In this document: piece after piece, positions 5,000-59,535 of the stretch | Layout: each line of letters opens with the position of its first letter | Numbering within the stretch: position 1 is the stretch's first letter | Assembly (NCBI GenBank): GCA_039881145.1 | Contig: JAYKKI010000126.1 | Location: 669,501-733,500 of the forward strand | Reading direction: 5' to 3' | Source: Druceiella hillmani | Taxonomy: Eukaryota; Arthropoda; Insecta; Lepidoptera; Hepialidae | Length of the DNA: 64,000 bases | Notes under the pieces: model-generated | Databases searched by the model: none | What the model saw: the letters and a program-made list of their open reading frames with translations, nothing else | What the model was told of the DNA's origin: nothing | Made by a program: the position numbers and the translations under genes

Positions 5000-6575
5000 T
5001 GACTAAAAAATACACGTAAATCACCTCAGACCTACAATGTATCTTCCAAAAGTTTTCAAAGAAGAAGTGACTTTTAGTAGGAGTATACTCAAGAGTCAAA
5101 GTGGTCATCGCACGACCAACAGGGACACCAAATAGAAGTTTGCTGATCGATTGTAACATTTAGCAAGTCATAGATTCGGCATAATTTGAAAAGTTTTTCG
5201 TCAATACGCTTTTGAACTTCGAACGTCAAAACATAAAAATATAATTTTAATCAAAAATCTAGGATGACCGGGGAAGACTGGTTTCATTGATTTATGAAAG
5301 GAAACCCACAATAAGAGACTCAAAAGCCAGTAGGGTTATCAACGGCAAGTTAAGGGAAAAAGTTAGAAATTGTTTTAAAATGTAAGAAAAGGTGATAGAT
5401 GACAATGACTTGAAAGGAAAACGTGAATGCGTACAAAACGTGGACAAAACTGTGGACAAAACTGTGTGACAAAACCAATTAATAACCATCCATCTAATAT
5501 TCTTGCAAAGAAAGGATCAAATGACGTTGTCAGCGTGACGAGTGCACAACGAGGTGGAAACGTAACTGTTTTAGCCTTGATGAATGCTGCAGGACTTAAC
5601 AGATCGCTGTTTGTTCTTTTTGAAGGTATGCGGAAACGAAACGACTTTATGATATATATGCCTTCTGGGATTGAAATTGCAATGATAAAAAAGACTGGAT
5701 CATTAAAGAAGTATTTAACCTATGATTGAAATATAAAAATTTACACCAGACAGAAAATCATTTTTACAAGAAAGTCATTTTAATTTTGGACGGGTATGCG
5801 TCTCATACTAGTTATGCAGTGATAAATTTGTGGGAGTCTTTAGAAATTAAACTTGTATATAGCCAGTGTTTAAAACTATTGGAACATTTCCTCCAAACTC
5901 CAATGCCATACCAGATTACAAGTTCATTGTGTATATTCAGGACCGTGTCAAGTTGTACTTGGTTTACTTTAACTTCATTCGACCAATGCACAAGTTTATG
6001 ATGCATAACCATTACCATCTACAAGTAAACAACAGATTCAGGATACACAGCCACCAATATTTTCACGACCGTTCGACATTAAGCAACATGACAGTATTGG
6101 TGTGAGAAACATTATAAGAGAAATTCTTTCCTCTCCATGAAAGGTTCCAACTATAATAACTTTGCTCTTAATCAAAAAAGCCTACTTGGCATTTTACAAA
6201 ATAAAAACCACATAACACCAGAATATGAGAACAATATTCTTAGAAACGAAACGAAGGAAAATATGAGTTCAAAAACAGCTAAAAATAAAGGGAATATAAA
6301 GGTTAAAGCTTAAGCTAAAAGAATATAAAGGTTACGATTAGAAAAATCTAAAATTCACAGAATATTAAGGTCATGAAAATTAATAAAACTACACCATAAA
6401 TAAGAGTGAAAAACAGGGCTCCGTCAAAAGATTGGTACTGCATTTTTTGTTCAGAAAGATTTGTACACCCTCCAAGAAGACCGGATTTAGTATATTACAT
6501 GCGAACAATGGTGCCACGAAAACTGCATTGACAGAAGAAGTAACAAACGACCATAAATTTGTGACTTATATGCCG
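5000..6575 (+). pseudogene. decayed pogo/Tigger-type (DDE) transposase
   Basis: Frame-shifted fragments follow the order of pogo/Tigger (jerky/CENP-B-related) transposases. Near 5243-5281 NFNQKSRMTGEDW matches the CENP-B-type DNA-binding segment (family pattern FN...MAGKDW), followed by an eroded MKGNPQ...KPVGLS. NVDKTV near 5440 corresponds to the first catalytic Asp block (family NxDETG; the Glu is lost). VTSAQRGGNVTVLALMNAAG (about 5533-5592) is the conserved mid-domain strand. VILILDGYASHT (about 5776-5811) is the second catalytic Asp block. FKTIGTFPPNSNAIPD (about 5866-5913) is the typical 'GxxxTGIxPxNxxxIP' segment. The block that should carry the third Asp, between the last two, is deleted. 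DWYCIFCSERF (6430-6462) and, after a frameshift, CEQWCHENC with ICDL (about 6500-6560) are the C-terminal cysteine/histidine zinc finger. Many stops and frameshifts mean it cannot be active. TIRs were not found. Confidence 0.8.
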
Positions 6576-7205: not shown

Positions 7206-7218
7206 AGCTTTCTGATGT

Positions 7219-7438
7219 ATTTAATATGTTTAGCGTTAATTTTGTAGATATTCATTATTCATAATTAAATGAAACTACGTGATGTAATATTATTTCCACT
7301 TCCTTTAAGTTCTTTACCGCAACCTAGGTTTCGTATAGCCCACTTGAAGATGTTGAAATACAACGAAACCTAGGTCGTGGTAAAGAACTTAAACAAAGTA
7401 GAAATAATATTACATCACGTAGTTTCATTTAATTGTGT
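7219..7438 (+). mobile_element. hammerhead hairpin element, copy 1
   Basis: Copy 1 starts with a roughly 45-bp leader (contains TTAGCGTTAATTTTGTAG). It continues with a left arm (about 7267-7335) that is the reverse complement of much of the right arm (about 7340-7437). The outer ends read AATTAAATGAAACTACGTGA and TCACGTAGTTTCATTTAATT. The 10-bp direct repeat TTTCTGATGT flanks it at 7209-7218 and 7439-7448, a target-site duplication. The left arm is cut short inside the ribozyme-like motif, so only the right arm carries a full motif. TSD length, leader and inverted arms argue against an ordinary TA- or TTAA-type MITE and fit a Penelope-like terminal-repeat derivative (inference). Confidence 0.65.
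7340..7386 (+). ncRNA. hammerhead-ribozyme-like motif (copy 1, core mutated)
   Basis: Stem I CCAC (7340-7343) pairs with GUGG (7377-7380). The first core segment reads UUGAAGA, so the invariant C3 is U. Stem II GUUG/CAAC is present, GAAA follows, stem III is within ACCUAGGU, and the cleavage nucleotide would be C7376. The outer UCUUU strand of stem I is missing because the left part is deleted. The lost C3 predicts an inactive ribozyme. Confidence 0.5.
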
Positions 7439-7448
7439 TTTCTGATGT

Positions 7449-13289: not shown

Positions 13290-13517
13290 ATTGTGTAAGA
13301 AGAAGTTATCTTTTTTTCAACCAAGCTCTATTAATTTTTCACAAGTAACCAAATATATTAGAGATCTTACAGGAGGAGAGAATTCTCCAGGCTTCCAGCA
13401 AAGAATCTTTGCTAACAGCCCACCTGAAGTTGTTGTAATACAACGAAACCTAGGTCGTGGTAAAGAACTTAAAGAAAGTAGAAATAATACTACATCACGT
13501 AGTTTCATTTAATTGTG
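13290..13517 (+). mobile_element. hammerhead hairpin element, copy 2
   Basis: The right arm (13,406-13,517) matches the other copies closely and ends ...CATTTAATTGTG. Upstream of it, instead of an inverted left arm, is about 110 bp of different, non-repetitive sequence (contains CTTACAGGAGGAGAGAATTC). This could be internal sequence of a longer parent element. An open frame crosses the whole unit on both strands (about 63-73 codons), but other copies do not conserve it, so I do not call a gene. No target-site duplication was recognised; the left limit is uncertain. Confidence 0.55.
13406..13466 (+). ncRNA. hammerhead-ribozyme-like motif (copy 2)
   Basis: Outer stem I UCUUU (13,406-13,410) pairs with AAAGA (13,462-13,466). 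Inner stem I CCAC (13,420-13,423) pairs with GUGG (13,457-13,460). The core is CUGAAGU (13,424-13,430), where canonical A9 is U; then stem II GUUGU/ACAAC with an AAU loop, GAAA (13,445-13,448), and short palindromic stem III ACCUAGGU. C13456 would be the cleavage nucleotide. The A9 change probably lowers or abolishes activity. An unpaired U precedes stem II here and in every copy. Confidence 0.55.
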
Positions 13518-28168: not shown

Positions 28169-28180
28169 GCCAACTTCCTA

Positions 28181-28372
28181 ATATTGAATATATTTGGCGT
28201 TAATTTTGTAGAAATTCATTATTCACAAAGAAATGAAACTACGTGATGTAGTATTATCAATCTTTGCTAATAGAACCACCTGAAGATGCTATAACACAAC
28301 GAAACCTTGGTCGTGGTAAAGAACTTAAAGAAAGTAGAAATAATACTAAATCGCGTAGTTTTGTTTAATTGT
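28181..28372 (+). mobile_element. hammerhead hairpin element, copy 3
   Basis: It is flanked by a perfect 12-bp direct repeat GCCAACTTCCTA (28,169-28,180 and 28,373-28,384), the clearest target-site duplication of the family. It starts with the leader ATATTGAATATATTTGGCGT, keeps only about 25 bp of the left arm (AATGAAACTACGTGATGTAG), then joins directly to the full right arm. Because copies 1, 2 and 3 lose different amounts of the left half while the right arm is constant, the variable side behaves like a 5'-truncated end. That is expected for target-primed reverse transcription rather than cut-and-paste transposition. Confidence 0.75.
28261..28322 (+). ncRNA. hammerhead-ribozyme-like motif (copy 3)
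   Basis: UCUUU (28,261-28,265) pairs with AAAGA (28,318-28,322), and CCAC (28,276-28,279) with GUGG (28,313-28,316). The core is intact: CUGAAGA (28,280-28,286), GAAA (28,301-28,304), stem III within ACCUUGGU, and cleavage nucleotide C28312. Stem II is weakened by two or more substitutions (GCUAU opposite ACAAC). The unpaired U before stem II is present. Confidence 0.55.
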
Positions 28373-28385
28373 GCCAACTTCCTAT

Positions 28386-31344: not shown

Positions 31345-32269
31345 ACTCTGACATTTACGCAATCGTCAATCACGCACTTCAAATACAGAAAGAAAAAGTA
31401 TCAAATATGGAGGGAAAATTTAAAATACTTTTCTACCAAATAAAAATAGAAATGGAAAAACAAATATTATATTTGAAAAAGTGAATAAAAAATTAGAACC
31501 ACTGACAGAAGACGATACAATTATGAAAAATAAAATTTAAATATTGGAAAAGAAGACTGGTCATTTCAAGAAACGATGTTTTATTTTTTGGTTTGAAAGA
31601 GAAAGAGAAATCTTCATTAGAGCTATTTGAGGGAGTTCAGGCAATTTTTAAAACGGACCTGAAAATTACTTTCAATGCAAAAGATGTACCAAAGATTAAC
31701 CGCATTGGTTTCAAAAAAGAAAACAAAATAAGACTTGTTCTTAATGCATTTGCAAATAGTTGGAACGGAACAAATGTATAAAAATATTAAAAATTAGGAG
31801 GAGCCTAAAAGACGTATATGTTAGCGAAGATTTTCTAAAGGAAGTTTTAGAAAAAAGAAGGGTATTGAAACCAAAGCTAATTGAAGAACGTGCGAAAGGA
31901 ATTATCGCATATATAAAACATGATCGATTGATAGTGGAAAAGGGAAGTAAAGACAATGAAAGAAAGAAAAGAGATCAATCAGCTTCGCCGGAAAATCAGA
32001 GACAGACCAAGAATCCTATGAACAAAAATTCAGCAATAAAGGAGATTAAGAGAAATACATTCAAGCTGATGACATCTAAATCAAGCTCACTTTCTAGTAT
32101 CTCAATCCAACCCAAGTGGCAACTAAATAACTGTAACCGAAAACAGGACAACCCAAATCGGGCTGGTCCCCGTGGGATTATCAGACCACCACACCCCACA
32201 AATATATCCTTATACCAAATAAGAAATAATAAAATATACATCGCAACGTTTATATTTTTCAAAATATAA
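31345..32269 (+). pseudogene. LINE ORF1 remnant (coiled-coil RNA-binding-type protein)
   Basis: Reading through stops and frameshifts gives a Lys/Glu-rich coiled-coil-like N-terminus (MEKQIL..., EKKTG...). Next comes a block with SSLELFEGVQAIFKTDLKIT and PKINRIGFKKENKIR..., then SLKDVYVSEDFLKEVLEKRR, LKPKLIEERAKGIIAYIKHD and RLIVEK. This is the layout of ORF1 proteins of insect RTE-like LINEs, with the 'RIGKK...RPILV.F' and 'R..LK...V+VSED...VLEKR+.L.P.L...R..G..A+I+YD+L+V' blocks. The C-terminal basic Ser-rich tail (KRDQSASPENQRQTK) precedes NRAGPRG and the start of the endonuclease (NKIYIATF). It presumably bound element RNA. Stops near 31,482 and 31,780 and frameshifts inactivate it. Confidence 0.7.
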
Positions 32270-32299
32270 AATAATGGTTACAGAACAAATACCTATTCA

Positions 32300-33595
32300 A
32301 GCACAAAGTTCACTATTATCCTGATACATAAAAAAGGAGATAAAAATGAAATAAATAACTACAGACCTCTGTGTCTAATGTCCAATCTATATGACGTGTT
32401 TTCAAAAATAATACATGGCCGAATAAAGAAACAGCTGGAAGAAAACCAACCCAGAGAACAACCCAGAGAACAAGCGGCATTCTACTATCAATCATATTCA
32501 TGTTGCGAAACAGATCACCCAAAAACTCAATGAATGTGGGCAACACTATTATATGGCATTTGTAGATTACAAAAAAGCTTTCGATTCCCTGAGCCATAAC
32601 TATATTTGGAAAACGCTTGAAAATCAAGGCGTATAGAGTAAATACATAAGAATTATAAAAGAAATTTATAAAAATACCACAGAAATGGTCCAACTGGAAC
32701 AACGAGAAGAGGAATTTAATATTCAGCAAGGCGTTAGGCACGGCGATCCATTCTCCCCAAGACTTTTAAAAAAAAATTTTTTGGAAAATATATTCAGAAA
32801 TATAGACTGGGAAGAGATTGCAATAAATTTAAATTGAGTAAATCTAAATCATGTGAGATTCGCAGACGACATTGTGATATTTGCTGAGAAACCAGACACA
32901 CTACAAACTATGTTGCTACAATTAGGTCACGAAAGCAGAAAAATAGGTCTATCTATGAATCCAACAAAGACTAAAGTGATGACAAACACATTAAGGAAAA
33001 ACATGGAAATAGGATAAAAGCTATCGAATATGTAGATGAATACATATATCGAGGATAGCCAATACCAATTAGGGAGCAATACTCTAAATAAATAGACAGA
33101 AGAATAAGAAATACTTGGAAACGATGTCGGTCACTGAAAGAGATATTTAAAAACGAAACAATGTCAGTGAAACACATACGGTGCAACCCATGCATTCTCC
33201 CATGTTTTACGTATTGATGTCAATCTTGCCATGGTACCAGTAAAAACAACCAAAAACTTGCAGTTTGCCAAAGCAACATGGAGCAAATTACGTTAAACAT
33301 AAGGCTCCAAGACATCTTCAAAAATAAGAAAAAGAACAAAGATGAGTAACGTTTTACAAAAATAAAAAAAACTTAAATGGAACTGAACTAGTCACATCAT
33401 GAGAACGAACAGATAAAACGGAAGATATAGGTAATGGAATGGTATCGTAGCAATGGAAAAGGACAAAAAGGACGTCAAATCAAAAGATGGCAGGATGATT
33501 TACCAAACAGATGGAGAAAATTATTTCGGAATAGAGATGAGTCGAAGACAATGGGGGAGGCCTATGTCAAGGGCTGACCAAGAAAATGGCTGCTG
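32300..33595 (+). pseudogene. LINE reverse transcriptase remnant, endonuclease deleted
   Basis: Across three frames the reverse-transcriptase blocks are readable: ILIHKKGDKNEINNYRPLCL (about 32,315-32,375), the catalytic-Asp block YYMAFVDYKKAFDSL (about 32,548-32,592), FNIQQGVRHGDPFSPRL (about 32,716-32,766), and the YXDD-equivalent VRFADDIVIFAEKP (about 32,851-32,893). Next are GLSMNPTKTKVM and a C-terminal domain with IDRRIRNTWKR...LKEIFKNETMSVKHIR. The end (about 33,478-33,580) is KRWQDDLPNRW...MGEAYVKG, the 'RW.DD.....W...EAYV' ending typical of the RTE clade. FADD retains both Asp. A direct duplication of CCCAGAGAACAA near 32,449-32,473 inserts extra PREQ residues. Confidence 0.8.
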
Positions 33596-35394: not shown

Positions 35395-36012
35395 ATGAGT
35401 GACAATCAAATACCCACATACGAATAAGTAACAAAATATTATAATTTGATAAAGTATAGTCTTAAATTTGACGACAGTTTAAAAAATACCAACAGTTAAC
35501 AAGATTTTGAAATGGTTTAGAGAAAATTGGAAAACAAGTTTTAATTATTAAAAACATATCATACTAAGTGCAACAACCTGATCAAGTCTGCAAATGAACT
35601 GTCAGAAGAATAGGTGCAAGAATTTAGAAAACCTCTGAAAGGTTGTTTCTTTTGATTTCATGCGAGTGTAAAAATTGGATTATGTATTGTTCCAGAGGTT
35701 ACAAGGTTTACAAAGAAGAACGAGCTTTCTTACTCGATAAGAGAATAGAAAGAAAAATAATTATTAGAAATATTGATTTAACGCTATTAGGAGAAAGAAA
35801 AAACTAAATGACAGTAACATGAAAATGAAAACTTATTAAGATTCTTAAAGTTAATTAGTGAGCAAGGTCGTTCTTACAAAAATACCGATATCTTTTTAGA
35901 GTCCGTAAGTAGAAAAATTGAGGCTTTGCCTGGGTGTTCATTGGAATCAACATCAAAAAACAAAAAAGTAGAAAATACAGTCCCTGAAGAATTTATCAAG
36001 TGTTTTGTGTGA
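35395..36012 (+). pseudogene. decayed ORF of an insect-repeat protein type
   Basis: From ATG 35,395 one frame reads MSDNQIPTYE-stop-VTKYYNLIKYSLK...KLENKF..LLKTYHTKCNNLIKSA... through several stops. After a frameshift near 35,650 another reads LISCECKNWIMYCSRGYKV, then KEERAFLLDKRIERKIIIR and NIDLTLLGERK. Alternating N-terminal 'IPTYEEV..YY..IK..L' and 'C.C......C......VP..E..FL.DQR..RKM.IG.ID' blocks match an uncharacterised protein type I remember from insect repeat-associated predictions. It has no known function. Further on, LISEQGRSYKNTDIFLESVS (about 35,854-35,913) may be its C-terminus. At least six in-frame stops make it a pseudogene; recognition is from memory only. Confidence 0.45.
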
Positions 36013-36393
36013 AAATAACGGATACATAATCAATACTGAATCAAACTTCTTGAATTTTTGACTGCTTTGTTTACGTGGTACCTAAATTTTTGTTATGTGG
36101 ATTCGTATTATTACGTGAAAAATAAATTTTATTTCTTTCTCTATAATGATTTTCACAATTGTATTTATTTGTGTACGCATTAATTGTAGTGCTTTTTGGT
36201 AAAAGTTTGCAATATTATCTCGTATTCCTTTCCGCAAACATATCACATCATTATTATCATTTAATATCGATGTATTTCACATAAACCAATTATAAACTAC
36301 TGGTAATTAATAACTACTGGACTTGTAATTAAACACGTTCACAATGAAACAAAGTGTGTCAAAATTTGGGGAATGCGAGGGGGTAGTACTCGG

Positions 36394-36432
36394 TTCTAAT
36401 TGGTTAACGCACAGTGCGTTAACTAATTAGAA
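36394..36432. repeat. 39-bp near-perfect palindrome
   Basis: TTCTAATTGGTTAACGCAC (36,394-36,412), a central A, and GTGCGTTAACTAATTAGAA (36,414-36,432) pair with one mismatch in 19. It holds GTTAAC twice. It lies about 480 bp upstream of the satellite array and has no loop, so as DNA it would extrude a cruciform. Confidence 0.85.
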
Positions 36433-36911
36433 GCGACACATTTTATTGTAATTGGTCAGCGGATGCACCAATCATATAATTATCAAGGCTGTGAAAATAT
36501 TCATTATCTATTATTCGATAGTATTTATTTACCGAGCTACGTAATAATATCGAAAATTATTTTCTGTAATATGTATTTTGTATCTTTAAACTTGGTTTAA
36601 TTAATATTAATTTTAATATACTTAAGGATATTCTCTGTGTACCAAAAATTACCATTTTTCATAATTTATTATTTTTTAAACAACTTTAATATTAAAATAC
36701 CAAAAAATACCAACACTTTTATGAACAACCAAAATGATAAGGATGAGTATAATATCAACTTTTGCTTCTGTTTGGTATAAGTGCCAATTAAAAAAAATTT
36801 TCACATCAAAAATTTGCGTGGACTAAATTTTTCCATTGTACGGGTTAAACTAAATTATACAAACTTAACTATAATTCAAGTAAAAAAATTACCTAATGAA
36901 TAATAAAAAAA

Positions 36912-39900
36912 TACATTTTACTTTCTTACCTTTCTTAAAAAATATAAATTATTTAGTACCTATTACTATAAGTATATTTTACTTTCTTACCTTTCTTAAA
37001 AAAATATAAATTATTTAGTACCTATTACTATAAGTATATTTTACTTTCTTACCTTTCTTAAAAAATATAAATTATTTAGTAACTATTACTATAAGTATAT
37101 TTTAATTTCTTACCTTTCTTAAAAAATATAAATTATTTAGTAACTATTACTATAAGTATATTTTACTTTCTTACCTTTCTTAAAAATATAAATTATTTAG
37201 TAACTATTACTATAAGTATATTTTACTTTCTTACCTTTCTTAAAAAATATAAATTATTTAGTAACTATTACTATAAGTATATTTTACTTTCTTACCTTTC
37301 TTAAAAAATATAAATTATTTAGTACCTATTACTATAAGTATATTTTACTTTCTTACCTTTCTTAAAAAATATAAATTATTTAGTAACTATTACTATAAGT
37401 ATATTTTACTTTCTTACCTTTCTTAAAAATATAAATTATTTAGTAACTATTACTATAAATATATTTTGCTTTCTTACCTTTCTTAAAAAATATAAATTAT
37501 TTAGTACTTATTACTATAAGTATATTTTACTTTCTTACCTTTCTTAAAAAATATAAATTATTTAGTACCTATTACTATAAATATATTTTACTTTCTTACC
37601 TTTCTTAAAAAATATAAATTATTTAGTAACTATTACTATAAGTATATTTTACTTTCTTACCTTTCTTAAAAATATAAATTATTTAGTAACTATTACTATA
37701 AGTACATTTTGCTTTCTTACCTTTCTTAAAAAATATAAATTATTTAGTACTTATTACTATAAGTATATTTTACTTTCTTACCTTTCTTAAAAAATATAAA
37801 TTATTTAGTACCTATTACTATAATTATACTTTAATTTCTTACCTTCCTTAAAAAATAAAAATTATTTAGTAACTATTACTATAAGTATATTTTACTTTCT
37901 TACCTTTCTTAAAAATATAAATTATTTAGTAACTATTACTATAAGTATATTTTACTTTCTTACCTTTCTTAAAAAATATAAATTATTTAGTACCTATTAC
38001 TATAAGTATATTTTACTTTCTTACCTTTCTTAAAAAATATAAATTATTTAGTAACTATTACTATAAGTATATTTTACTTTCTTACCTTTCTTAAAAATAT
38101 AAATTATTTAGTAACTATTACTATAAGTATATTTTGCTTTCTTACCTTTCTTAAAAAATATAAATTATTTAGTACTTATTACTATAAGTATATTTTACTT
38201 TCTTACCTTTCTTAAAAAATATAAATTATTTAGTACCTATTACTATAATTATACTTTAATTTCTTACCTTCCTTAAAAAATAAAAATTATTTATTACATA
38301 TTACTATAAGTATATTTTACTTTCTTACCTTTCTTAAAAAATATAAATTATTTAGTACCTATTACTATAAGTATATTTTACTTTCTTACCTTTCTTAAAA
38401 AAATATAAATTATTTAGTAACTATTACTATAAGTATATTTTACTTTCTTACCTTTCTTAAAAAAAAATAAATTATTTAGTACCTATTACTATAAGTATAT
38501 TTTACTTTCTTACCTTTCTTAAAAAATATAAATTATTTAGTACCTATTACTATAAGTATATTTTACTTTCTTACCTTTCTTAAAAAATATAAATTATTTA
38601 GTAACTATTACTATAAGTATATTTTACTTTCTTACCTTTCTTAAAAATATAAATTATTTAGTAACTATTACTATAAGTATATTTTGCTTTCTTACCTTTC
38701 TTAAAAAATATAAATTATTTAGTACTTATTACTATTAGTATACTTTACTTTCTTACCTTTCTTAAAAAATATAAATTATTTAGTACCTATTACTATAATT
38801 ATACTTTAATTTCTTACCTTCCTTAAAAAATAAAAATTATTTATTACATATTACTATAAGTATATTTTACTTTCTTACCTTTCTTAAAAAATATAAATTA
38901 TTTAGTACCTATTACTATAAGTATATATTACTTTCTTGCCTTTCTTAAAAAATATAAATTATTTCGTACCTATTACTATAAGTATATTTTACTTTCTTGC
39001 CTTTCTTAAAAAATATAAATTATTTAGTACCTATTACTATAAGTATATTTTACTTTCTTACCTTTCTTAAAAAATATAAATTATTTAGTACCTATTACTA
39101 TAAGTATATTTTACTTTCTTACCTTTCTTAAAAAAATATAAATTATTTAGTAACTATTACTATAAGTATATTTTACTTTCTTACCTTTCTTAAAAAAAAA
39201 TAAATTATTTAGTACCTATTACTATAAGTATATTTTACTTTCTTACCTTTCTTAAAAAATATAAATTATTTAGTACCTATTACTATAAGTATATTTTACT
39301 TTCTTACCTTTCTTAAAAAATATAAATTATTTAGTAACTATTACTATAAGTATATTTTACTTTCTTACCTTTCTTAAAAATATAAATTATTTAGTAACTA
39401 TTACTATAAGTATATTTTGCTTTCTTACCTTTCTTAAAAAATATAAATTATTTAGTACTTATTACTATTAGTATACTTTACTTTCTTACCTTTCTTAAAA
39501 AATATAAATTATTTAGTACCTATTACTATAATTATACTTTAATTTCTTACCTTCCTTAAAAAATAAAAATTATTTATTACATATTACTATAAGTATATTT
39601 TACTTTCTTACCTTTCTTAAAAAATATAAATTATTTAGTACCTATTACTATAAGTATATATTACTTTCTTGCCTTTCTTAAAAAATATAAATTATTTCGT
39701 ACCTATTACTATAAGTATATTTTACTTTCTTGCCTTTCTTAAAAAATATAAATTATTTAGTACCTATTACTATAAGTATATTTTACTTTCTTACCTTTCT
39801 TAAAAAATATAAATTATTTAGTACCTATTACTATAAGTATATTTTACTTTCTTACCTTTCTTCAAAAATATAAATTATTTAGTAACTATTACTATAAGTA

Positions 39901-40699
39901 TATTTTACTTTCTTACCTTTCTTAAAAATATAAATTATTTAGTAACTATTACTATAAGTATATTTTGCTTTCTTACCTTTCTTAAAAATATAAATTATTT
40001 AGTACTTATTACTATAAGTATATTTTACTTTCTTACCTTTCTTAAAAAATATAAATTATTTAGTACCTATTACTATAATTATACTTTAATTTCTTACCTT
40101 CCTTAAAAAATAAAAATTATTTATTACATATTACTATAAGTATATTTTACTTTCTTACCTTTCTTAAAAAATATAAATTATTTAGTACCTATTACTATAA
40201 GTATATATTACTTTCTTGCCTTTCTTAAAAAATATAAATTATTTCGTACCTATTACTATAAGTATATTTTACTTTCTTGCCTTTCTTAAAAAATATAAAT
40301 TATTTAGTACCTATTACTATAAGTATATTTTACTTTCTTACCTTTCTTAAAAAATATAAATTATTTAGGACCCATTACTAAAAGTATATTTTACTTTCTT
40401 ACCTTTCTTAAAAAATATAAATTATTTAGTACCTATTACTATAAGTATATATTACTTTCTTACCTTTCTTAAAAAATATAAATTATTTAGTGCCTATTAC
40501 TATAAGTATATTTTACTTTCTTGCCTTTCTTAAAAAATATAAATTATTTAGTACCTATTACTATAAGTATATATTACTTTCTTACCTTTCTTAAAAAATA
40601 TAAATTATTTAGTACCTATTACTATAAGTATATTTTACTTTCTTACCTTTCTTAAAAAATATAAATTATTTAGTACCTAATACTATAATTACATTTTAG
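36912..40699. repeat. 61-bp satellite array, about 62 monomers, with higher-order structure
   Basis: The monomer is 60-62 bp (plus strand TATTACTATAAGTATATTTT, then ACTTTCTTACCTTTCTTAAA, then AAATATAAATTATTTAGTAC plus C). Length varies in the A run. Boundaries are abrupt on both sides. Rare variants recur: the CCTTCCTTAAAAAATAAAAA type near 37,842, 38,267, 38,817, 39,549 and 40,097 (spacings about 425, 550, 732 and 548 bp), and the TTTCGTACC type near 38,962, 39,694 and 40,241. These spacings equal 7, 9, 12 and 9 monomers, so blocks of monomers were amplified as units. Read on the minus strand every monomer carries a near-consensus splice donor (AAAG-GTAAGA). Confidence 0.97.
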
Positions 40700-48258: not shown

Positions 48259-48382
48259 TTGTAATTACAACTAAATGAAACTACGTAACGTAGTATTATT
48301 TTTACTTTATTTAATTTCTTAACCACGAGCTAGGTTTTATTGTATGACGACATCTTTAGGAGTGGTAATTTGTAAAGATTGT
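48259..48382 (-). mobile_element. hammerhead hairpin element, copy 4 (half copy, degraded)
   Basis: A single constant arm in minus orientation starts ...TAAATGAAACTACGTAACGT at its outer end and runs to AAAGATTG. On the minus strand the motif reads CCACU, CCUAAAGA, then a broken stem II, UAAAA where CGAAA is expected, and CCUAGC before UCGUGG. Core residues C3/U4 and G12 are altered, so the ribozyme-like fold is lost. It lies inside the spacer of the large inverted duplication. Confidence 0.55.
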
Positions 48383-51858: not shown

Positions 51859-53153
51859 AACCGACTTCAAAAAAAGGAGAGTGTATTCTTTTTTATGTAT
51901 GTTCAGCGATATTTCTTTACAGAGTGAATCGATTTCGATGATTCTTGTTTTATTAGAAAGGTGATACTTTAGGGGTAGTCTCATAATATGATGATGATCT
52001 AATGAAGAGGTCTGGAAATGAACGACGGAACTCCTTAACGAATGACAGTATATCAACTATTATTCAAGATATTTCCTACGGGCAGTTGTTACTTTGCGAA
52101 ATAACTACACTACATAACAGATCAATGTTTCGTAGATGAACAATTGAACTCCGATCATGAATTTTGTAGATGAACAATGGATCTCCTCAACGGATTTTAA
52201 GTAATCAACCGTGATTAAAAAGGTTTGCTATTAGTGGTTACTAATTTGCAAAATAACTCCGGGTGGACTGTGTCACACGGTCAGAGTATAGCGACGAGTT
52301 CTGGAGATAAATAACAGAATTCCTTAATGAATGGTCGTAAATTTAATTTAATTCAAAATATTTTCTATCGATCGTTGTTACTTTACAAAATAACTATACC
52401 ATCGACCATATCAGTCTAATGATGCTTTCTGAAAATGACAATGAAACTCTTTATCGAATGATGGTCAATCAAGCGTGCTCCAAGATATTTGCAATTTGTA
52501 GTTGTTACTTTACAAAAAAAATACACAATCGACCATATCAGTTTGACGATACTTTCTGGAAATGACAATGAATCCTTGTCGGATGGTAGTCAATGAACCG
52601 TAATTGAAAATATTTACTGCTGTTAGTTTTTACTTCGCAAAATAACTGCATCATCGACCATGTCAGGATTTCATGATGAGTTCTGAAGATGAATAATACG
52701 ACTCCTTAAGGGGTGTTAATAATTCAATAGTGATGAAATATATTTGTTACTGTTTAGTTGTTACTTTCGTAATTACTTTGTAAAATATAATATTGGATTT
52801 CGAATACGGACAACGGAAGTCCTCAAGTGGTAGTTGTAACTTTTCAAAAGCTAACCACTCTGCAAACCGTTGAGGGTTTCATTATCATGCTTATTTTTGA
52901 AGTAGGTACCAGCACTGTCGACAAACTTAAACAAATTTATAATTTAATTTAATTTATAATGTAAATTTAAAACCTTAACTTCTAATGTACTCACAATACG
53001 AAAATAAATTTGTAAACAGCGTATTTATAATATGAAATTTTACATTTGTTTAAATTAATAAGTAACATACTTATTTATTACGAAAACTTAAATATCAATT
53101 TTGAGGCAATTTTTTTACTTTTGAGTACCTATATTTTTTGAAGTCGGTTTTTT
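51859..53153. mobile_element. TIR-bounded element with internal tandem repeats
   Basis: AACCGACTTCAAAAAAAGG (51,859-51,877) and TTTTTTGAAGTCGGTTTTTT (53,134-53,153) form terminal inverted repeats about 1.29 kb apart. Behind the left end comes GAATCGATTTCGATGATTCT and AGAAAGGTGATACTTTAGGG, a layout I recall from a repeat widespread in insects. From about 52,000 to 52,850 a unit of about 120-150 bp is repeated roughly six to seven times (GTTGTTACTTTRC, AAAATAACTAYACCATCGAC-type, CATATCAGT, GAAATGACAATGAA). The right 250 bp match the centre and right arm of the 12.2-12.6 kb element. There is no coding capacity; I leave the superfamily open. Confidence 0.65.
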
Positions 53154-59018: not shown

Positions 59019-59124
59019 AATAAAAGTTAGATTTTGAATATATTTGGCGTTAATTTTGAAGAAATTAATTATTCACAATTAAATGAAACTACGTGATGCA
59101 GTATTATTTCTACTTTCTTTAAGT

Positions 59125-59185
59125 TCTTTATCACGACCTAGGTTTCGTTGCATTACAACATCTTCAGGTGGGCTGTTAGCAAAGA
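59125..59185 (-). ncRNA. hammerhead-ribozyme-like motif (copy 5, left arm, best core)
   Basis: Read on the minus strand: outer stem I UCUUU (59,185-59,181) with AAAGA (59,129-59,125), and inner stem I CCAC (59,171-59,168) with GUGA (59,134-59,131; three of four pairs). The core CUGAAGA (59,167-59,161) is intact, as is stem II GUUGU/GCAAC with an AAU loop, GAAA (59,146-59,143), and palindromic stem III ACCUAGGU. C17 is the complement of 59,135, so predicted cleavage lies between 59,135 and 59,134. One unpaired U separates A9 from stem II. All invariant core residues are present. Confidence 0.6.
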
Positions 59186-59214
59186 TATAGATAACATATT
59201 TGCTAATAGCCTGC

Positions 59215-59267
59215 CTGAAGATGTTATAATAAAACGAAATCTAGGTAGTAGTAAAGAACTTAAAGAA
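59215..59267 (+). ncRNA. hammerhead-ribozyme-like motif (copy 5, right arm, degraded)
   Basis: CUGAAGA (59,215-59,221) and CGAAA (59,235-59,239) are kept, but stem II has lost pairs. The sequence after stem III reads GGUAGUAG instead of GGUCGUGG, removing the cleavage nucleotide and stem I pairing. It is predicted to be inactive. Confidence 0.45.
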
Positions 59268-59319
59268 AGTAGAAATAATACTACATCACGTAGTTTCATT
59301 TAATTGTGGATAAAAGAGA

Positions 59320-59535
59320 GAGTAAAGTTGCACTTTATTATTCTGTCACTGACGAGATATAGTCAATCAATAATTAAAGAGTCAGTTTTTTTGAAAAAAA
59401 GGTCACTAACTATGTTGGTAACTAACTAAACTCTGTTCTTCATCCATTTTCACATTAAAAATAAAGGTAAAAATTGGCAACATTTGTACCAACAGATAGC
59501 GCCTACAAGAATATTTTTGTCTCTTAAAAAGTAAG
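59320..59535. other. AT-rich DNA, no gene seen
   Basis: A short stretch between the hairpin element and the SINE-like head; nothing recognised. Confidence 0.4.

Follow-up and report, generated by a model that had tools for sequence, protein, structure and literature searches.

The question raised by this locus is how a single insertion came to carry hammerhead-like ribozyme motifs in both orientations. The locus lies at 59032-59308 of the window, that is, the whole 64,000-nucleotide stretch of Druceiella hillmani DNA analyzed here, and a first-pass annotation had described it as a palindromic element bearing such motifs on both strands. That description was confirmed: a repeat finder identified inverted arms at 59069-59186 and 59196-59313, each of 118 nt and 89% complementary, separated by a 9-nt spacer, and the segment 59032-59308 consists of a 42-nt extension followed by the inverted arm pair. 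We propose, with a probability of roughly 0.55, that this palindrome and its relatives are old Penelope pLTR insertions formed by two-ended priming and head-to-head joining of the cDNAs. The parts of the locus, referred to as copy 5, are as follows.

59020 to 59031, plus strand: left target-site duplication (TSD) of copy 5 (ATAAAAGTTAGA), 10/12 identical to 59310-59321, a score reached in 172/20000 random pairs
59032 to 59073, minus strand: tail in inverted orientation, 42 nt, common to copies 1 (41 nt) and 3 (43 nt) in alignments
59074 to 59187, minus strand: left (inverted) pLTR arm of copy 5, from the repeat finder and alignments
59132 to 59170, minus strand: putative minimal type I hammerhead motif with full core, C3 at 59167 and predicted cut at 59135/59134; RF00163 match below gathering
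59199 to 59308, plus strand: right (sense) pLTR arm of copy 5, 3' end TTTAATTGTG, from the repeat finder and alignments
59211 to 59251, plus strand: a further hammerhead-like motif with an intact core and C3 at 59215; stem II has 3 pairs, and one stem I pair is compensated
59310 to 59321, plus strand: right TSD of copy 5 (ATAAAAGAGAGA)

A BLAST search of the region against the window returned five copies (7220-7437, 13405-13517, 28181-28373, 48264-48360, and 59031-59313) and no copy longer than these. Exact pattern searches of viral and prokaryotic contig collections gave no match, a result that is little informative given the contents of those collections. The other four copies and their flanks are laid out as follows.

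7209 to 7218, plus strand: left TSD of copy 1 (TTTCTGATGT), repeated at 7439-7448 (10/10), a score reached in 17/20000 random pairs
7219 to 7437, plus strand: copy 1, with an inverted tail (7219-7259), a truncated left arm (7260-7334), and a right arm (7335-7437), from alignments
13397 to 13517, plus strand: copy 2, one arm with a 17-nt mini-palindrome (13397-13413) at its 5' end, no TSD seen
28170 to 28180, plus strand: left TSD of copy 3 (CCAACTTCCTA), repeated at 28374-28384 (11/11), a score reached in 10/20000 random pairs
28181 to 28373, plus strand: copy 3, with an inverted tail (28181-28223), a short left arm (28224-28257), and a right arm (28258-28373), from alignments
48264 to 48378, minus strand: copy 4, one decayed arm whose right end has decayed to TTGTA, no TSD seen

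Three of the five copies (1, 3, and 5) are inverted pairs, and copies 2 and 4 have a single arm. The extension of 41-43 nt was aligned at the left end of all three palindromes and at the right end of none of the five copies. The right-hand limit of homology is TTTAATTGTG in copies 1, 2, 3, and 5, and the decayed counterpart TTGTA in copy 4. The limits of the left arm differ from one palindrome to the next (7260-7334 in copy 1, 28224-28257 in copy 3, and 59074-59187 in copy 5), and the left arm lacks 28 nt of right-arm sequence in copy 1 and about 82 nt in copy 3. The TSDs, whose significance was assessed by comparing the flank match score with 20000 random position pairs, begin on the right 0 or 1 nt past TTGTG in copies 1, 3, and 5; inspection of the flanks of copies 2 and 4 by eye revealed none. 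Elsewhere in the window, an AT-rich tandem array occupies 36915-40698 (61-bp unit, about 62 copies, 243-bp higher-order period) and is G-poor on the plus strand, with a GC skew of -0.40 over 36001-40000; a further tandem repeat of 2.5 copies of a 127-bp unit lies at 52349-52666.

The hammerhead motif was examined by direct reading, with descriptors, and with Rfam. The left arm of copy 5 reads CAC-CUGAAGA-U-GUUGU-AAU-GCAAC-GAAA-CCUAGGU-C^GUG on the minus strand, giving a stem I of 3 pairs, a stem II of 5 pairs, and a short stem III. Reading the sequence bore out the earlier claim that this arm keeps every core residue in type I order, and the register from which cleavage at 59135/59134 had been predicted was re-derived here. 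Both arms of copy 5 carry one additional U between A9 and stem II. With a strict and a relaxed hammerhead descriptor, both composed after the motif was known, the strict form found the left-arm site of copy 5 alone in the window and nothing in 60 shuffles, and the relaxed form found two window sites, one per arm of copy 5, and five sites in total in 150 dinucleotide shuffles, none of which held two. All residues of the conserved core CUGANGA..GAAA..UH are present in three of the six aligned arms, namely the two of copy 5 and the right one of copy 3; among these, a full stem II is confined to the left arm of copy 5. Judged by sequence, each arm of copy 5 can be read as a minimal type I hammerhead, stem II being weak in the right arm. 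The extra U, the extension of about 42 nt at one end, the target duplications, and the restriction of the full core to half of the arms had been overlooked in the first-pass annotation.

Rfam (4227 families) returned no hammerhead in the whole window, either at gathering level or at E<=5, and none in the full palindrome at E<=10. In searches of single arms at E<=10, RF00163 Hammerhead_1 matched the left arm of copy 5 at 59132-59170 on the minus strand (11.5 bits, E 3.4) and the arm of copy 2 at 13420-13460 on the plus strand (11.3 bits, E 4.3). Hammerhead_1 was the sole family in both of these single-arm searches (2/6 arms), in the predicted register; for one pre-named family this would be expected by chance about once in 1000, though the stretches had been selected and the two arms are homologous. 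The Rfam check proposed earlier thus produced the right family in the right register, but at scores below the Hammerhead_1 gathering threshold of 34 bits. The miRNA-precursor matches that made up nearly all those listed for the full palindrome and the window, all below gathering, were rejected as artefacts of the long hairpin and AT microsatellites.

An outer UCUUU:AAAGA helix, also noted earlier, can form in three of the six arms (copies 2, 3, and the left arm of copy 5) but did not raise stability in the energy model (-4.2 kcal/mol with the helix, -4.8 without). The consensus hammerhead fold reached -4.8 kcal/mol against a minimum free energy of -14.6 kcal/mol. In the same comparison the PAc hammerhead gave -8.6 against -17.6 kcal/mol, and folding energy was set aside as an undiscriminating test because the ribozyme of PAc, which cleaves when its protein is present, shows a similar gap. 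Folding of single arms gave no marked gain over shuffles (z -1.88 to 0.50, 5 arms). The transcript of the whole of copy 5 is predicted to form a hairpin of -156 kcal/mol, within which the ribozyme would probably be hidden.

The individual copies look dead. Across the six arms, 4/66 core cells and 31/498 cells at other positions were changed; since the core changed as often as the rest, there is no signal of selection on individual copies. The compensatory changes sought in the first-pass annotation amounted to one of 12 pairs: in the right arm of copy 5, a stem I C-G pair has become U-A. This lies within chance, as 93 of 500 shuffles reached it. The AUG formed by A9-U-G is present in five of the six arms, copy 2 being without it, and the A9 AUG frame is interrupted by a stop in all six, by TAG in five; these stops reflect decay or a non-coding source RNA. 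The third frame, open in 5/6 arms, was discounted as chance, and the arm of copy 2 gave no Pfam match at E<=0.1.

The five loci are very probably old pLTR-only insertions made by Penelope machinery, a reading preferred because the tail, the inverted arms, the short TSDs, and the hammerhead are all present. Head-to-head pLTRs (3/5 copies), a tail at one end (3/3 palindromes), and short TSDs (3/5) agree with EN+ Penelope-like elements, and an inverted pLTR arrangement is already known for Penelope elements. Penelope parentage is what we infer from these features, and ribozyme activity of the source RNA would follow from the motif as read. The earlier link to Penelope and the type I assignment are therefore supported by the tail, the head-to-head pLTRs, the TSDs, and the PAc-like extra U. 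A Penelope RT or GIY-YIG ORF was not found among the 10 of 164 filtered ORFs (at least 60 aa) that were scanned against Pfam. A weak RVT_1 match at 32270-32530 (E 0.002, below the cut-off) lies within an apparent LINE remnant (31527-32530), and a fragment at 5427-5998 gave a weak DDE_3 match (E 0.097); by eye we take the latter to resemble a pogo-like transposase.

For the formation of copies 1, 3, and 5, we consider the following course. The pLTR would be a stretch that includes, besides a minimal hammerhead ribozyme, the sites on the RNA from which RT starts. An endonuclease would cut both target strands about 10-12 bp apart, and each 3' end of the cut would prime cDNA on pLTR RNA. Synthesis from one primer would begin at the inner of two start sites (..TTTAATTGTG) and from the other at the outer one, some 42 nt beyond, which would leave the tail. 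Joining of the two cDNAs head to head would then yield a palindrome that is tailed on one side and flanked by a target duplication, and the hammerheads in both orientations would be a by-product of that joining. Two-ended target-primed reverse transcription, the central step, stands at close to even odds in our estimate. We suggest somewhat more tentatively that the palindromes record a Penelope RT, perhaps as a dimer, extending both strands of a staggered cut from one start site each.

The evidence on mechanism comes from three palindromes. Two-ended priming predicts arms whose lengths vary independently, start points fixed at both ends, and a TSD; in two of the three palindromes (copies 1 and 3) the arms are non-nested. 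Since the right arms of these two hold an extra 28 and about 82 nt, simple copying of a folded-back left arm is disfavoured. Against two-ended priming, copies 2 and 4 are one-armed and without a TSD, and the mini-palindrome of copy 2 fits self-priming. In addition, the PAc start sites are alike on the top and bottom strands, according to the sections of PMC11167929 drawn on here, so that one tail per palindrome is not predicted. In copy 5, the arms differ from each other at 10/54 positions of the hammerhead half and 1/56 of the outer half (Fisher p 0.004, for a split chosen post hoc), a mosaic divergence that may reflect two template RNAs; both arms of copy 1 carry the private variant ATATTAC, and separate templates are thus not required.

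The alternative that survives best is self-priming, in which an antisense Penelope RNA serves as its own template once its 3' end has folded back, copies 1 and 3 having later undergone a central deletion in the left arm. It is the explanation favoured in print for head-to-head pLTRs, in an account that leaves the question undecided as far as the sections used here go (PMC3846280). ATATTAC in both arms of copy 1 agrees with it, as does the mini-palindrome at the 5' end of copy 2 (AGCAAAGAATCTTTGCT, window 13397-13413), which is possibly a small self-priming scar. A copied arm should nest in its template arm, however, and the right arms of copies 1 and 3 exceed the left; their non-nested look could come from central deletions after insertion, but these separate deletions have to be assumed. 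The tail-less right end also falls at one place in copies 1, 2, 3, and 5 (it is decayed in copy 4), as a start site would have it. On this balance we consider self-priming unlikely.

Distinctly less probable is a reading in line with the first-pass annotation, on which the palindromes are a distinct non-autonomous, SINE-like Penelope derivative that moves as a unit. The AUG-frame TAG common to 5/6 arms and the lack of a longer copy in the window speak for it, but the progeny of a palindromic master should all have one and the same junction, whereas the junction is different in each of the three palindromes, and copies 2 and 4 are single-armed. Because their left-arm limits differ, the palindromes look like separately formed insertion products, and a separate family built of two inverted terminal repeats is unneeded. 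A foldback (MITE-like) DNA transposon with terminal repeats that resemble hammerheads by chance is very improbable, since the inverted repeats, the -156 kcal/mol hairpin, and the Rfam scores under threshold that would suit it are set against asymmetric ends with a tail on one side, the existence of one-armed copies, TSDs of no fixed length (10, 11, and 12 bp), and a hammerhead motif in a PAc-like register.

If true, two-ended priming would account for head-to-head pLTRs and the one-sided Penelope tail without self-priming. The origin of inverted pLTRs is undecided in the sections of PMC3846280 used here, and the later steps of insertion are described in those of PMC11167929 as yet to be validated. 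At the level of titles and abstracts, the published literature contains nothing evident on this sequence family and no evident proposal of two-ended priming for inverted pLTRs, a level that leaves absence in print unestablished. Palindromes made of pLTRs only hold the junction and the TSD, as well as the two ends and the two start sites, within less than 300 bp, and genome-wide counts of them would provide a direct test of two-ended priming against self-priming.

The published systems are compared here through the portions of each source drawn on. In PAc (Poseidon_Ac), a lizard element of the Penelope/Poseidon clade, RT starts at two adjacent internal sites, the stretch between them being an optional tail of 30-40 bp, and the protein cuts and extends both DNA strands in vitro, using start sites that do not differ between the strands (PMC11167929). 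The PAc hammerhead, which overlaps the start of the ORF, requires added protein for cleavage and is dispensable for insertion in vitro (PMC11167929). The printed PAc template RNA reads CUGAGGA-U-G..GAAACGUC (PMC11167929) and satisfies the relaxed descriptor only when the extra U is allowed. The copies described here share with PAc the CUGANGA-U-stem II-GAAA register, with an AUG formed from A9-U-G, and their tail of 41-43 nt resembles the 30-40 nt between its two start sites (PMC11167929). In contrast to PAc, stem III is longer here (ACCUAGGU versus ACGU), the copies are pLTR-only, and the frame from the AUG is open in none of the arms; the ends lie about 88 and 130 nt past the AUG, and the commonest PAc start is at 111-118 (PMC11167929).

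Type I order, a very short stem III, and dispersed copies recall the minimal type I hammerheads of Penelope-like elements (PMC7761336, on Cervera and de la Pena 2014 and Lunse 2017), and a small non-coding element with a type I hammerhead recalls metazoan non-LTR retrozymes (PMC7229834, PMC7761336); a direct tandem of units, the arrangement expected of a retrozyme that moves via circular RNA, was seen in none of the five copies. Penelope elements of rotifers have inverted head-to-head pLTRs, one of which may carry a 31-bp tail, and several insertions are flanked by TSDs of 8-10 bp; others have no TSDs or direct pLTRs only, and solo pLTRs without TSDs are also mentioned (PMC3846280). The pLTRs of Pen2a_Av and Pen2_Av from Adineta vaga flank an RT-EN ORF, whereas the arms here abut with nothing between them, and the short palindrome at the pLTR 5' end of those elements is found here in copy 2 alone (PMC3846280). 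The palindromes of the window otherwise resemble Pen2a_Av and Pen2_Av in their head-to-head pLTRs, in the tail on one of them, and in their TSDs, which are 9 and 10 bp long in the rotifer elements (PMC3846280).
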